Positions 10,051 through 15,393 of a stretch of DNA of 32,317 nucleotides are shown in pieces (position 1 is the stretch's first letter; every line of letters begins with the position of its first letter). Under the pieces are notes generated by a model. That model was not told where the DNA came from and did not search any database. It worked only from the letters and a program-made list of their open reading frames with translations. The position numbers were made by a program, and so were the translations under genes. The stretch is taken from contig JAFRSP010000031.1 in the NCBI GenBank assembly GCA_017427525.1, positions 1-32,317 of the forward strand. Direction: 5' to 3'. Origin of the DNA: Clostridia bacterium (lineage in GTDB: Bacteria; Bacillota; Clostridia; Oscillospirales; Feifaniaceae).

Positions 10051-10182
10051 AATTCGATCCTTTTTCCCTGCTTAAAAAATCCATCATGCGTCCGGAGCGT
10101 CCCATTCCGCAAGACGCAGGCAAAATCGCTGCGCTCTCTGCATCTTTCATTTTGGAAGCGCCCCGCAGTGAGGAGACACCAT

Positions 10183-11538
10183 ATGAATATTGTGATCGTT
10201 GGAGACGGAAAGGTCGGCCATGCGCTGGCCGAACAGCTCTCCTCGGAAGGCCACGACATCGTGGTGATCGACAACAGTCCCGACCGCCTGAAGAATTCTG
10301 ATACACGGCTCGACGTGATCGCCGTGCAGGGCAACGGAGTCAACTATTCCGTTCAGCTCGAGGCAGGCGTGCCCAAAGCCGATCTGCTGGTGGCCGCCAC
10401 CCCCTCGGACGAATGCAATATGCTCTGCTGCCTGGTTGCACACAAGCTGGGGGCAAAGCACACGATTGCAAGAGTTCGAAATCCGGAATATACCCAGCAA
10501 CTGGTGCTGCTGCGGGAAGACCTTGGCCTCTCGATGGCCGTCAATCCGGAGCTGGCCACCTCGAAGGAGATCTCCCGCATTCTGGCCTTTCCCTCCGCCA
10601 CAAAAATCGAAACCTTCTGCAAGGGCAGAGTGGAACTGTGCGAATTCACGATTCCCAAAAACAGTCCTCTGCACGGCTTGGTTCTCAGTTCACTTTATGG
10701 GAAATACCGTCTCAAAGTGCTGATCTGCACCGTGCAGCGCAACGGCAAGGTCTATATTCCGCAGGGCGACTTTATGCTGCAGGCCGGCGACCATATCGGC
10801 ATCACGGCCTCCCCTGCCGAGATCTCGGCCTTTTTCAAAGCGGTGGACTTAACCCGAGAAAAGGTGCGCAACGTCTTTTTGGTGGGCGGAAGCCGCATCG
10901 CATACTATCTCACCCGTCAGCTGCTTGATATGGGCATGCAGGTCACCCTGGTGGAGTGCAACCATCGGCGCTGCCTCGAGCTGTGCGAAAGCTTTCCGCG
11001 CGCCATCATCATTGAGGGCGACGGCAACGATCACGAGCTTCTGCTGGAAGAGGGCTTGGGAGAAGCGGACGCCTTTGTGGCGCTGACCGGGAACGACGAG
11101 GCAAACATCCTGCTCAGTATGTTTGCCTCTGTGACCGGCGTATCCAAAACGATTACCAAGATCAACCGATCCCCCCTGCTCAAGGTGACCGACCAGCTTC
11201 CCCTCGACAGCGTGGTCTCTCCCAAGTCGGTCGCGACCAACCACATCCTCCAGTATGTCCGCGCGCTCAACAATTCCCGCGGAAGCAATGTGGAAACCTT
11301 GCACCGCCTGCTCAACGACCAGGTGGAAGCCCTGGAATTCCTGGTTACGGAGAGCTTCGACCGGCATTCGATCCCCCTGAAATCTCTCCCGCTCGAGAAA
11401 GACCTTCTGGTTGCCAGTATCATTCGAAACGGAAAGGTCATTATTCCGGGCGGAAACGATACCATTGAGATCGGCGACAGCGTTGTGGTGGTCACAACCA
11501 GACCGTATATGAAGGATATCAAGGATATCTTCCGCTGA
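10183..11538 (+). CDS. trkA: Trk/Ktr potassium uptake regulatory subunit TrkA
   Basis: Peripheral NAD-binding subunit of a potassium channel, 451 aa, built as two tandem RCK units (RCK_N plus RCK_C twice), as in full-length TrkA. The first Rossmann motif is GDGKVGHALA at residues 7-16; the second half opens with VFLVGGSRIAYYL. Both RCK_C domains are visible around IPKNSPLHGL and SIPLKSLPL. It gates the TrkH pore in response to nucleotides. The ATG at 10183 has GAGGAG upstream; an in-frame GTG 15 bases earlier overlaps that site and is rejected. trkH follows 212 bases downstream. Confidence 0.95.
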   Translation: MNIVIVGDGKVGHALAEQLSSEGHDIVVIDNSPDRLKNSDTRLDVIAVQGNGVNYSVQLEAGVPKADLLVAATPSDECNMLCCLVAHKLGAKHTIARVRNPEYTQQLVLLREDLGLSMAVNPELATSKEISRILAFPSATKIETFCKGRVELCEFTIPKNSPLHGLVLSSLYGKYRLKVLICTVQRNGKVYIPQGDFMLQAGDHIGITASPAEISAFFKAVDLTREKVRNVFLVGGSRIAYYLTRQLLDMGMQVTLVECNHRRCLELCESFPRAIIIEGDGNDHELLLEEGLGEADAFVALTGNDEANILLSMFASVTGVSKTITKINRSPLLKVTDQLPLDSVVSPKSVATNHILQYVRALNNSRGSNVETLHRLLNDQVEALEFLVTESFDRHSIPLKSLPLEKDLLVASIIRNGKVIIPGGNDTIEIGDSVVVVTTRPYMKDIKDIFR

Positions 11539-11750
11539 TCGTTGCTTTTCCGCCTCTTGCCCGAATACAACGGCGGGCTGATCCATTCGGCGGAGAAAGC
11601 GCCGTTTTCAAGGACAAAAGCGGCTGTCCCGAAGGCAGCATCCAAAACCGGCGGGGTATCTCACTCCCCGCTGCGGCGTCTGTTTTCTTCCTCTGCTCTT
11701 GCGGGGGGACCGCTTTCCCCGACTTCATCCGTTCGGAGCGTGAACACGGT

Positions 11751-13196
11751 ATGAATTACGCGATTGTCTTTTATATGCTCGGCTTCATCTGCAACGTCGA
11801 GGCGCTGCTCATGCTGCTGCCGCTGACCGTCGGCATCTTCTACCATGAGCCGGTCGTGGAGACCTTTGTGATCCCCATTGTGTTGTTGCTGGCCGTCGGT
11901 ACGGTTTTGACCCGAAAGCGGCCCCAAAAGCAGCGCTTTTATGCACGGGAAGGCTTTTTCATCGTCTCTCTCTGCTGGATCGTGCTCTCTGCTTTCGGCG
12001 CCCTGCCTCTGCTGATGAGCGGGCAATGTCCCTCATTTATCGACTGTTTTTTTGAAACCGTATCCGGTTTCACAACCACCGGAGCCTCCATTCTTCCCAA
12101 TGTTGAGATCTTCAACAAATCCGTGCTGTTCTGGCGCTCCTTCACCCACTGGATCGGGGGGATGGGCGTGCTGGTTTTCGTGCTCACCGTGCTCCCTCTG
12201 GCGGGGCAGAGCTCGATCCACCTGATGCGGGCAGAATCGCCCGGACCGATCGTGGGCAAGCTGCTTCCCAAGCTGCGCTCCACCGCCATGCTGCTCTATG
12301 GCATCTACATGGGGCTGACGGCGCTTTTGGTTCTGCTTCTCTGCTTCGGCGGCATGTCGCTCTACGACAGCTTCATCTTTGCCTTCGGCACTGCGGGAAC
12401 CGGAGGATTCGCCAACTACGCGGCCAGTGTGGGTCACTTCAACAGCCCCTATATCACCTGGGTCATCACGGTTTTCATGGCGTTGTTCGGCATCAATTTC
12501 AACGTCTATTACCTGCTCTTGTTCGGCAAAGCCGCGCAGGCTTTTAAGAGCGAAGAGGTTCGCTGGTATCTCGGCATCATCGTGGCCGCAACTGCCCTTG
12601 TGACCTTCAACATCCGGCATCTGTATGACAGTCTTGGTCTTGCGCTGCGCCACGCGGCTTTTCAGGTTTCCGCCATCATCACAACCACCGGCTTCTCCAC
12701 AGCCGACTTTGTGCAGTGGCCGACCTTCTCCCGCTCGATTTTGCTGCTGCTCATGACGATCGGCGCCTGCGCCGGTTCCACCGGCGGCGGCATCAAAACC
12801 TCCCGCGTGGTAATCGGCGTTAAGGCGGCCGGCCAGTCGCTGCGCCGGCTGTTGCACCCCCGCACTGCCACCTGCGTCCGCCTGGAGGGCAATCGGGTGG
12901 AGGAAGAGACCATCTCCACCGTGGGCTCCTACCTGACACTTTATCTCATGATCGTCATCGTTTCGGTTCTGGTGGTAAGCCTGGAGGGATATGATTTTGA
13001 GACCACCTTCACGGCCGTGCTGACCTGCTTCAACAACGTCGGCCCCGGCATGTCTCTGGTCGGTCCCACCCAAAATTTCAGTTTCTTCTCTGGTCTATCC
13101 AAGCTGGTTCTCTCACTCGACATGCTCCTTGGACGACTTGAAATCTTCCCCATGCTGGTATTGCTTTCTCCCTCCATCTGGAAAAAGAGCCGATAA
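11751..13196 (+). CDS. trkH: Potassium uptake protein TrkH (pore subunit)
   Basis: Integral membrane cation channel, 481 aa, the partner of TrkA. All four pore-loop (selectivity filter) segments of the TrkH/KtrB superfamily are present: SGFTTTGAS, GTAGTGGFAN, ITTTGFSTADF and FNNVGPGMSLVGP. GGGIKTSRV follows the third pore, as in the gating-loop region of TrkH. The protein ends in the standard LEIF..LVLLSPSIW. The ATG at 11751 has only GGAG 12 bases upstream, so translation may be modest. The 212 bases before it hold a small GC-rich hairpin (11651-11671) but no gene. Confidence 0.95.
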   Translation: MNYAIVFYMLGFICNVEALLMLLPLTVGIFYHEPVVETFVIPIVLLLAVGTVLTRKRPQKQRFYAREGFFIVSLCWIVLSAFGALPLLMSGQCPSFIDCFFETVSGFTTTGASILPNVEIFNKSVLFWRSFTHWIGGMGVLVFVLTVLPLAGQSSIHLMRAESPGPIVGKLLPKLRSTAMLLYGIYMGLTALLVLLLCFGGMSLYDSFIFAFGTAGTGGFANYAASVGHFNSPYITWVITVFMALFGINFNVYYLLLFGKAAQAFKSEEVRWYLGIIVAATALVTFNIRHLYDSLGLALRHAAFQVSAIITTTGFSTADFVQWPTFSRSILLLLMTIGACAGSTGGGIKTSRVVIGVKAAGQSLRRLLHPRTATCVRLEGNRVEEETISTVGSYLTLYLMIVIVSVLVVSLEGYDFETTFTAVLTCFNNVGPGMSLVGPTQNFSFFSGLSKLVLSLDMLLGRLEIFPMLVLLSPSIWKKSR

Positions 13197-13326: not shown

Positions 13327-13355
13327 TGGACAAATGCAAACAGGTCTGTTATACT
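13327..13355 (+). promoter_or_regulatory. Promoter of the lysine-riboswitch transcript
   Basis: TGGACA (13327-13332), 17 bases, TATACT (13350-13355). The expected start near 13362 falls exactly at the 5' end of the riboswitch P1 helix. Confidence 0.75.
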
Positions 13356-13363
13356 CGACTCAC

Positions 13364-13549
13364 GAAGTTGATAGAGGTTGCAGTGAGATGAGTAACCGGG
13401 GGAGCAGACATGCGATGAAGCCGGTGAAAGGGGTAACTGCCGAAGGGGAGCACAGGTATGTGCTCCTGCTGGGCTTAATGTGAAAATCATTAAGACTCCT
13501 GCGGAAGGGTGTCCGTCTCTTCCGCAGAGGCGCTATCGATGGGAACTTC
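13364..13549 (+). ncRNA. Lysine riboswitch (L-box) leader of the amidohydrolase gene
   Basis: The leader carries the conserved elements of the lysine riboswitch in order: GATAGAGGTTGCAG (13370-13383), GATGAGTAACC, CGGTGAAAGGGG followed by CTGCCGAAG (13437-13445), a P4 hairpin (GGAGCACA/TGTGCTCC, 13447-13466), GCTGGG (13468-13473) and a P5 hairpin (CTTAATG/CATTAAG, 13474-13494). P1 forms between GAAGTTGATAG (13364-13374) and CTATC plus AACTTC (13533-13537, 13544-13549), with a 6-base bulge. An extra 9-bp hairpin (13499-13507/13519-13527) sits between P5 and the 3' strand of P1, where the standard fold has none. A terminator follows at 13603-13635 and only then the gene start, so control is at transcription termination. 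The class is recognised from memory of its consensus; a covariance search with RF00168 would settle it. Confidence 0.82.
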
Positions 13550-13565
13550 CACCTGTTGAAAGTCT

Positions 13566-13585
13566 GCGCATGTTTTGTCATGCGC
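13566..13585 (+). other. Hairpin between riboswitch and terminator
   Basis: GCGCATG and CATGCGC with a 6-base loop: a perfect 7-bp stem in the expression platform, with no U-tract. It may act as a spacer or pause site while the aptamer folds. Confidence 0.5.
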
Positions 13586-13602
13586 GGCTTCGTTGTGTTG
13601 TG

Positions 13603-13635
13603 AAGGTTGCATCGAAGGCGATGCAACCTTTTTTT
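13603..13635 (+). terminator. Riboswitch-controlled intrinsic terminator
   Basis: A 12-bp perfect stem (AAGGTTGCATCG and complement, loop AAGG) followed by T7. It lies between the lysine aptamer and the gene start at 13689. Its 5' arm can instead pair with 13537-13549, the 3' strand of P1, which gives a simple antiterminator. Confidence 0.92.
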
Positions 13636-13688
13636 GTTGCATCGCCGTGAGCCATATTAACTCAAAAACAACAAAGAAGGAGTTTATT

Positions 13689-15284
13689 ATGGACAGAGTA
13701 TTTTTCAACGGAAAGGTCTATGTGGAAAGAGACCGCTTTGAAGAGGCCATCCTGGTGCGCGGCGATCGAATTGCACTGGTCGGGAAAAACGACGAAGTGC
13801 TTGCTGCCGCCGGCGACTGTGAGCGGGTCGACCTTGAAGGCCGCACCGTGATCCCCGGCCTCAACGACAGCCATCTTCACCTCCAGATGCTGGGGAAAAG
13901 CCTCAATGAGGTTCAGCTGTATGGCTGCACCTCCCTTGCAGAGGTCATCCGCCGCGGCAAAGAATTCCTGGCTACGCATCCCCTCAAAGACGGTGCACCC
14001 TTGACAGGCTTTGGTTGGAATCAGGACTATTTTACGGACGAAGTTCGGATGCCCAACCGCTATGATCTCGATCAGATCACCACCGACCGACCGGTCATTT
14101 TCTCCCGCGCATGCGGCCACGCCATCTCAGCAAACAGCTATGCGATCGAGCATATCGGCCTCACTGCCGACAGCGCACAGCCCGAGGGCGGCGAGTTCGG
14201 TATCACCGATGGCGAGCCGAACGGCCTTTTCTTCGAGCACGCCTCCAGTCTTCTTGATCCTCTGCGCGTTCCCGTGACGCCTGAGCTTCTTGCCACACAG
14301 CTCAAGTCCGGAATGGATTATGCCGCTTCCATGGGTCTCACCACCGTTCAGAGCAACGATCTGAGCGAGAGCAATTACCTCAAGTATCTCGCCGCGTTTG
14401 ACATTCTTCGCGCGAAGGACGCCATCACCTGCCGCTACTGGTCGCAGTGCAGCTTCACCACGGCCGAAAACCTGATCGGCTTCTTCAGCGAGGGCTTCAA
14501 GCGCGGAAGCGGAGACAATCTGGTACAGTTCGGTTCCGTAAAGCTGTTCATCGACGGTTCTCTCGGCGCCCGTACCGCCCTGCTGCGCGGACCCTATGCC
14601 GACGATCCGAATGCCCTCGGCATCAAGACGCTGGCCGATGACGTGTTTGACGACATCGTGCGCATCAGCGATGAGCACAACTGCACGGTCGTGACCCACT
14701 GCATCGGCGACGGCGCCGTGGAAAACTGCATCAACAGCTATGCCAAGGTGATCAAGGACGGCACCAATCCCAACCGCCACGGCATCGTGCACTGCCAGAT
14801 CACCGATGTCCCGCTGCTGGAGCGTATGCAGAAGCTCAATATCTGCGCCCTGGTGCAGCCCATCTTCATCCACTACGACATGCATGTGGTTCGTCAGCGG
14901 GTGGGCGATGCGCTGGCCGATACCTCCTATGCTTTCGGCACGCTGGGCCGCATGGGTGTTCCCGTCTCCTACGGCACCGACTGCCCCGTGGAAGACCTCA
15001 ACCCCTACGACAACATCTACTGCGCCGTGACCCGCAGAGATCTGAACGGCGGCGAGATCTATCTCGAGAAGGAGTGTGTGGATCGCTTCACCGCGATCGA
15101 CAATTACACTGTCGGCAGCGCCTACACCTGCTTCGATGAAAACGGCCGCGGCCGCATCAAGGAAGGCTTCCTGGCCGACTTCGTTGTGCTCGACGCCGAT
15201 ATCTTCACTGTTCCCGAAGATCAGATCCGTGCGATTCGCCCCGTTGCAACCTATCTGGGCGGCCGCGTCGCCTATCAGCGCTAA
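13689..15284 (+). CDS. YtcJ-type metal-dependent amidohydrolase under lysine-riboswitch control
   Basis: A 531-aa member of the amidohydrolase superfamily, amidohydrolase_3/YtcJ branch (which includes N-substituted formamide deformylase). Metal-site features are DSHLHL (His62, His64), VKLFIDGSLGAR (Lys285), THCIGDGA (His337), VHCQITD (His368) and SYGTDCPVE (Asp431), so the enzyme looks catalytically intact. No signal peptide or membrane segment, so it should be cytoplasmic. The ATG at 13689 follows AAGAAGGAG. An in-frame extension back to 13575 runs through the terminator and is rejected. The gene is monocistronic: a terminator follows at 15347. The substrate is unknown. The upstream lysine riboswitch suggests a product that is lysine or feeds lysine, for example an N-acyl or N-formyl lysine, but this is inference. 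Confidence 0.9.
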   Translation: MDRVFFNGKVYVERDRFEEAILVRGDRIALVGKNDEVLAAAGDCERVDLEGRTVIPGLNDSHLHLQMLGKSLNEVQLYGCTSLAEVIRRGKEFLATHPLKDGAPLTGFGWNQDYFTDEVRMPNRYDLDQITTDRPVIFSRACGHAISANSYAIEHIGLTADSAQPEGGEFGITDGEPNGLFFEHASSLLDPLRVPVTPELLATQLKSGMDYAASMGLTTVQSNDLSESNYLKYLAAFDILRAKDAITCRYWSQCSFTTAENLIGFFSEGFKRGSGDNLVQFGSVKLFIDGSLGARTALLRGPYADDPNALGIKTLADDVFDDIVRISDEHNCTVVTHCIGDGAVENCINSYAKVIKDGTNPNRHGIVHCQITDVPLLERMQKLNICALVQPIFIHYDMHVVRQRVGDALADTSYAFGTLGRMGVPVSYGTDCPVEDLNPYDNIYCAVTRRDLNGGEIYLEKECVDRFTAIDNYTVGSAYTCFDENGRGRIKEGFLADFVVLDADIFTVPEDQIRAIRPVATYLGGRVAYQR

Positions 15285-15346
15285 ATCTTCCCGCTTTGTG
15301 CGATGAACTTCAAGCATTCTTTCCTTACGCTTTTATTATCTTATAG

Positions 15347-15393
15347 AAGAGAAGATGCCGCCTTGCCAAGTGAGGCGGCATCTTCTCTTTTCT
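15347..15393 (+). terminator. Amidohydrolase terminator
   Basis: A 16-bp stem (AAGAGAAGATGCCGCC and its complement, 11-base loop) followed by TTCTCT. The 385-base gap to 15669 holds this element, a second terminator at 15553 and no gene. Confidence 0.85.

Follow-up and report, generated by a model that had tools for sequence, protein, structure and literature searches.

A pocket-variant subtype of the lysine-class riboswitch upstream of a YtcJ-type amidohydrolase in Oscillospirales

The RNA encoded at positions 13364–13543 (plus strand) of the window, by which is meant the whole stretch of 32,317 nucleotides analysed from a Clostridia bacterium (contig JAFRSP010000031.1), is a distinct pocket-variant subtype of the lysine-class riboswitch and is filed here as a variant and not as an ordinary member of the class. 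It precedes a gene for a YtcJ-type metal-dependent amidohydrolase, and the explanation that we favour, with somewhat better than even confidence, is that it is an OFF switch which silences an amide-salvage enzyme when the amino-acid product of this enzyme is plentiful. A riboswitch on one branch of PF07969 constitutes a built-in metabolite reporter, so that the ligand of the RNA would name the product of the enzyme, in a family of more than 100,000 sequences (PMC13081902) where the substrate is known for few members. With lysine as the ligand, a new salvage enzyme controlled by a tuned lysine sensor would be present in gut bacteria that lack the lysine pathway; with any other ligand, a second sensor would be hidden in a riboswitch class known since 2003. 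A true variant class would disclose a metabolite new to RNA sensing and, with it, what is produced by a very large enzyme family, most of it of little known function.

A lysine-class aptamer before a lone amidohydrolase gene

A search with the Rfam model RF00168, which an earlier note on this DNA had called for, matched 13364–13543 over the full model (1–182) with 76.5 bits (E = 1.6e-18), where the gathering threshold is 30. All aptamer elements quoted in that note are present, and the conserved junction core AGAGG, GAAAGG and GCCGAA is complete. In the assembly of the window (1.42 Mb, 93.9% complete) this is the sole lysine-type riboswitch found. About 9 nt 5' of the aptamer lies a promoter-like site, TGGACA-17-TATACT (13327–13355, plus strand), which is σ70-like by consensus match only. 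The 3' strand of P1, CTATCGATGG (13533–13542, plus strand), has as alternative partners the 5' strand of P1 or the terminator, an intrinsic one located between aptamer and gene at 13602–13635 (plus strand; hairpin 13602–13631 followed by a T-run), and the 5' arm of this terminator, CATCGAAGG (13610–13618), can pair with 13533–13542 as an antiterminator.

The gene behind the switch is an intact open reading frame on the plus strand, from an ATG at 13689 to a stop at 15284, and encodes a YtcJ-type metal-dependent amidohydrolase of 531 aa. The unit is closed 3' of the stop by a terminator hairpin with a U-rich tail (15346–15391, plus strand, -35.4 kcal/mol), for which reason the hydrolase gene looks monocistronic. 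The observation that the sole gene behind the riboswitch is an intact amidohydrolase with its own terminator was thus borne out, and where an RF00168 element is expected to precede a gene of lysine biosynthesis or transport, a lone amidohydrolase was found.

Directly upstream, at 10168–13196 of the window, there are homologues of the potassium uptake genes TrkA-TrkH (named by inspection), and the gene order is identical in G005, a genome from another genus of the same family. K+ is a co-ligand of lysine riboswitches (PMC10043782), and the TrkA-TrkH genes are here upstream of the switch.

A variant pocket floor

In the structure of the T. maritima aptamer G11, G163, G141 and A162 form a quartet flooring the lysine pocket, with G141 conserved to more than 95% (PMC3764141). 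When 131 lysine-class aptamers from the order (Oscillospirales) were read in the numbering of that structure, G141 appeared in all 122 that precede other genes, 111 of them having it opposite A162, while all nine hydrolase leaders carry C141 opposite G162, a bulged base 161 and a regular helix beyond. In the window this is seen in the P5/J5-1 element (13495–13535, plus strand; numbering as in PMC3764141), where C141 (13498) pairs with G162 (13529) and A161 (13528) is bulged, the further positions being G163 (13530), C at 164 (13531) and C166 (13533). The bulged base is A in eight of the nine and U in G193. The C141-G162 pair together with the bulge replaces half of the purine quartet, and neither G141 nor the G11·G163·G141·A162 floor is found in the window aptamer or the eight others. 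The remaining core segments and near-invariant positions that were checked are the same as in the lysine consensus. The claim of an ordinary lysine riboswitch thus stands as far as the class, RF00168, is concerned and fails at the floor of the pocket, which departs from the consensus.

The nine aptamers with C141-G162 are exactly those that lead into a YtcJ hydrolase gene, either directly or through a transporter gene paired with it. Because aptamers with high scores are over-represented in the sample, nine is a minimum, and there may be variants in front of other genes. Behind the 122 ordinary aptamers no amidohydrolase was detected in the ~1.5 kb fetched downstream, a stretch beyond which a hydrolase placed behind a transporter, as in G193, could lie in some cases; the genes found there are mostly asd, nhaC, dapA, amino-acid ABC proteins, lysC, lysA and yfcC. 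Four genomes (G001, G002, G003 and G265) harbour both aptamer types, the ordinary one on nhaC or an amino-acid ABC protein and the variant on the hydrolase. G193 drew attention only by its deviant aptamer, before its hydrolase had been recognised, and so tests the rule connecting floor and gene without having been used to tune it.

At two loci (L236 in G342 and L244 in G336) an ordinary lysine riboswitch is situated ~500 nt upstream of an open reading frame that resembles the 3-keto-5-aminohexanoate cleavage enzyme, an enzyme of lysine fermentation. These riboswitches possibly control lysine degradation instead of synthesis.

Conservation of the riboswitch-hydrolase unit

A survey of genomes for the same pairing, as suggested in the earlier note, showed it to be kept in nine genomes from several families. 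Each of the four genomes of the genus has the riboswitch directly before the hydrolase orthologue, the other three proteins being 63–73% identical to that of the window. In G005 the order is TrkA-TrkH-riboswitch-hydrolase with a second hydrolase copy 600 bp further on, so that two tandem hydrolases, 55–56% identical to that of the window, are situated behind a single riboswitch (L026, 8212–12023). Three genomes from two other families (G265, G099 and G273) have the order riboswitch, amino-acid permease, hydrolase, and G193, from yet another family, has the riboswitch, an AGCS (sodium:alanine) symporter and a distant YtcJ hydrolase. In this last case the variant riboswitch, the symporter and the hydrolase form one apparent operon (L260, 5312–8759), and the nearest relative of the hydrolase is an Erysipelotrichaceae protein.

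A phylogeny of 46 hydrolases groups the genes behind eight of the nine leaders in one clade and places the G193 hydrolase across a 100/100 branch, beside the Erysipelotrichaceae protein. Hydrolases separated by such a branch and accompanied by different transporters force at least two separate linkages. Across the several families, at 45–73% protein identity, the linkage is maintained, aptamers, terminators and reading frames all being intact; the riboswitch-hydrolase unit is real and selected. The close homologues on named contigs belong to Candidatus Galloscillospira (Oscillospiraceae), to a MAG from goat caecum and to a Clostridiales MAG. No paper joining a lysine riboswitch with YtcJ was found in the literature searched.

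The same permease-hydrolase pair occurs among close homologues in other Clostridia without a riboswitch, and Rfam searches at relaxed thresholds gave no weak lysine element near these pairs. When the permeases of G265 and G099 were compared with transporter models they matched best as L-type (neutral amino acid) transporters (254 bits), followed by the FrlA (fructoselysine carrier) model (192–196 bits) and by basic amino acid/polyamine antiporters (110–125 bits). Other surroundings of YtcJ homologues were noted as well; at L128, L131 and L132 (G456, G664 and G553) the gene is placed directly behind an ORF resembling the S component of an ECF transporter, with no riboswitch, and at L022, L077, L080 and L081 homologues from the same clade lie near glmM/glmS with its glmS ribozyme, with no lysine riboswitch of their own.

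Switch direction

In all nine leaders the 5' arm of the terminator can be matched, as its complement, with the P1 3' strand, which is usually CTATCGATG. For eight of them the antiterminator duplexes were computed to ~-6 to -13.5 kcal/mol, and in G003 the elements were seen by inspection. The leaders of the genus, at ~-8 kcal/mol, have weaker antiterminators than G265, G099 and G273 (~-13 kcal/mol), and in the genus the antiterminator is not always the winner in the minimum-energy fold of the whole leader; in the fold of the window leader the P1 strand pairs elsewhere. An antiterminator in the window leader is therefore put forward as plausible. A closed P1 leaves the terminator arm free, which corresponds to an OFF switch, and judged from these predicted structures all nine leaders have an OFF-type layout.

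The hydrolase

The protein matches PF07969 (Amidohydro_3) with 312.6 bits over residues 47–529. Its metal ligands H62, H64, K285, H337, H368 and D431, found without change in all 46 homologues, correspond to the six-residue metal site shown by mutation in a bile salt hydrolase of PF07969 (PMC13081902). An AlphaFold2 model built from ten sequences (pLDDT 87.9, pTM 0.90) is closest to two uncharacterised Pyrococcus hydrolases, 3igh (Z 46) and 3icj (Z 44), after which comes a broad tie of amidohydrolases with lysine/arginine carboxypeptidases among them; sequence and fold searches of the PDB gave nothing beyond these. A search for residues specific to the hydrolases of the riboswitch clade gave only scattered positions. 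By inspection the protein has no signal peptide and it is predicted to be cytoplasmic.

Lysine and cell wall metabolism of the hosts

Profile searches of the genomes, on which all gene absences given here rest, did not find lysA in any of the four genomes of the genus, nor dapA and dapB in six of the nine hydrolase-linked genomes (G000–G003, G005 and G265). Weak LysA-like matches in G005 and G265 fall short of the curated cut-off and were not counted as LysA, the one in G265 scoring better as another PLP decarboxylase. Both dapA and dapB are present in G099 and G273, as well as in G004 and G006, two members of the family in which the riboswitch is on asd-dapA-dapB. Among the 315 good genomes of the order 288 have dapB, and it is missing in six of the eight hydrolase-linked genomes of the window clade compared with 21 of the 307 others (p = 6e-6); because these eight are not independent the count is also given per genus, 3/4 against 12/164 (p = 0.002). 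The six genomes in which dapA and dapB are missing, the four of the genus having no lysA either, are apparent lysine auxotrophs, which favours salvage. The presence of dapB in three of the nine (G099, G273 and G193) shows that auxotrophy is not a condition for the unit.

MurE is found in all and contains the DNPR motif (loci L153, L155–L157, L159 and L160 for G000–G003, G005 and G265), a motif usually tied to DAP-adding enzymes. Near murE in G005 (L159) another core-like motif was considered as an aptamer and rejected since the remaining aptamer parts are not there.

Ligand and function

In the explanation that we favour, a transcription-terminating OFF riboswitch would control a YtcJ-type binuclear metal amidohydrolase, elsewhere together with an amino-acid permease, and the hydrolase would cut the amide bond of a small imported compound and release an amino acid. 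When plentiful this amino acid would bind the aptamer, P1 would close, the terminator would form and the gene would be silenced; under scarcity the P1 3' strand would instead pair with the terminator 5' arm and the gene would be read. Against this explanation speak dapB in three of the nine genomes, the ordinary lysine riboswitches resident in four of them, the weaker antiterminators of the genus, and the riboswitch-free permease-hydrolase pairs of close homologues, by which the role of the enzyme need not be tied to lysine. We infer that the RNA binds what the enzyme produces, and that this is lysine or something closely similar. The probabilities of lysine and of some other ligand appear about equal, lysine itself being given a chance just short of even; lysine is supported by the auxotrophy and the preserved core, and another ligand by the exact split of floor and gene, its repeat in an unrelated operon and the co-resident ordinary switches. 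The proposal of a lysine salvage enzyme switched off when lysine is plentiful agrees with the OFF layout and with the missing dapA, dapB and lysA, but as the variant pocket was found only before the YtcJ hydrolase family, lysine as ligand and as product is something that we infer.

The two readings of the pocket are branches of this explanation. A variant class hidden in RF00168 and dedicated to YtcJ-type amidohydrolases and amino-acid permeases, sensing a non-lysine amino acid or related compound that is the product of the hydrolase or near to it, can be held tentatively, somewhat below even. It would account for the floor split of 9/9 against 0/122, with the genes behind split likewise, for a linkage that arose at least twice, with YtcJ enzymes distant from each other, and for linked transporters that are L-type-like and AGCS and not cationic; in G001, G002, G003 and G265, where variant and ordinary aptamers exist side by side and the latter are on transporters, there would be no need for another sensor of lysine. 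That a common riboswitch class can include rare variants with another ligand is also a known phenomenon (reviewed in PMC10043782). On the other hand, 141 and 162 belong to the floor of the pocket, with no direct ligand contact reported (PMC3764141), and the other near-invariant core positions checked stay as in the class; moreover, eight of the nine variants, being from a single hydrolase clade, lack independence, and low-scoring aptamers are under-sampled so that further variants may precede ordinary lysine genes. Ordinary lysine salvage, in which C141-G162 is neutral or tunes the affinity and lysine is freed from an N-acyl, formyl, carbamoyl or peptide form, is about as probable, likewise somewhat below even. 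The gene absences in six genomes and in the genus speak for it, as do the aptamer score far above the gathering threshold, the classification of Streptomyces epsilon-lysine acylases as YtcJ-like amidohydrolases (PMC10699109) and the C. difficile lysine riboswitch before yfcC and an M20D amidohydrolase (PMC11477304), and an N-epsilon-acyl lysine, with its neutral side chain, would suit an L-type or FrlA-like permease. It leaves unexplained why the variant floor is confined to hydrolase leaders, and dapB in three of the nine genomes and the carboxylated lysine, invariant here and missing in the epsilon-lysine acylases, argue against it.

Two further explanations have little probability. That the hydrolase is a biosynthetic N-acyl-DAP deacylase, in place of DapE or acetyl-DAP deacetylase, would fit the MurE motif, which indicates a DAP-kind diamino acid in the wall, and the Thermotogales dap operons, in which a lysine riboswitch is placed over an amidohydrolase (PMC5584792). 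It is very improbable, and close to refuted for the genome of the window, as the precursor-making dapA and dapB are absent in six genomes and the hydrolase gene elsewhere sits with a permease. A chance or lineage-bound juxtaposition, with the riboswitch a relic and the hydrolase a housekeeping enzyme unrelated to lysine, could be argued from the many YtcJ homologues lacking a riboswitch, but is contradicted by the linkage across several families, the intact elements and the origins, at least two in number, and is given a slighter chance still.

Comparison with known systems

The Pyrococcus metal-dependent hydrolases 3icj and 3igh, the closest solved folds (Z 44–46), share 27–28% identity with the protein, and the next structural matches, the L-lysine/L-arginine carboxypeptidase Cc2672 (3mtw, Z 31.9) and 3be7 (Z about 32–33 for this group), have ~18% identity and a Z tied with many other amidohydrolases, from which no specific link can be read. 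MetalloBSH of Bilophila wadsworthia belongs to the same Pfam family and has the same six metal-site residues, but is a secreted protein of 101 kDa that acts on taurine-conjugated bile salts (PMC13081902), whereas the 531 aa of the window protein, with PF07969 reaching residue 529, do not reach ~100 kDa and hold no C-terminal domain of that kind. The epsilon-lysine acylases (EC 3.5.1.17; SmELA and SgELA) are likewise YtcJ-like and free lysine from N-epsilon-acyl-lysine (PMC10699109). Compared by description only, they use histidine/aspartate metal ligands and have no carboxylated lysine (PMC11511702) in contrast to the invariant K285, and the window hydrolase is therefore not filed with them.

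As in the window, a lysine-class riboswitch precedes an amidohydrolase in C. difficile, there with a transporter (riboswitch-yfcC-M20D, PMC11477304); M20D is of another enzyme superfamily, the transporter is YfcC and no variant pocket is reported. With the lysine riboswitch (L box, LYS element, RF00168) the window RNA has the whole fold in common, as well as the AGAGG, GAAAGG, GCCGAA and TGG core, the L4 adenines, G163, C166 and a terminator-type expression platform. It differs in having C141-G162 and a bulged base where the ordinary riboswitch has G141·A162, and in preceding an amidohydrolase where the ordinary riboswitch precedes lysine biosynthesis genes or a known lysine transporter.
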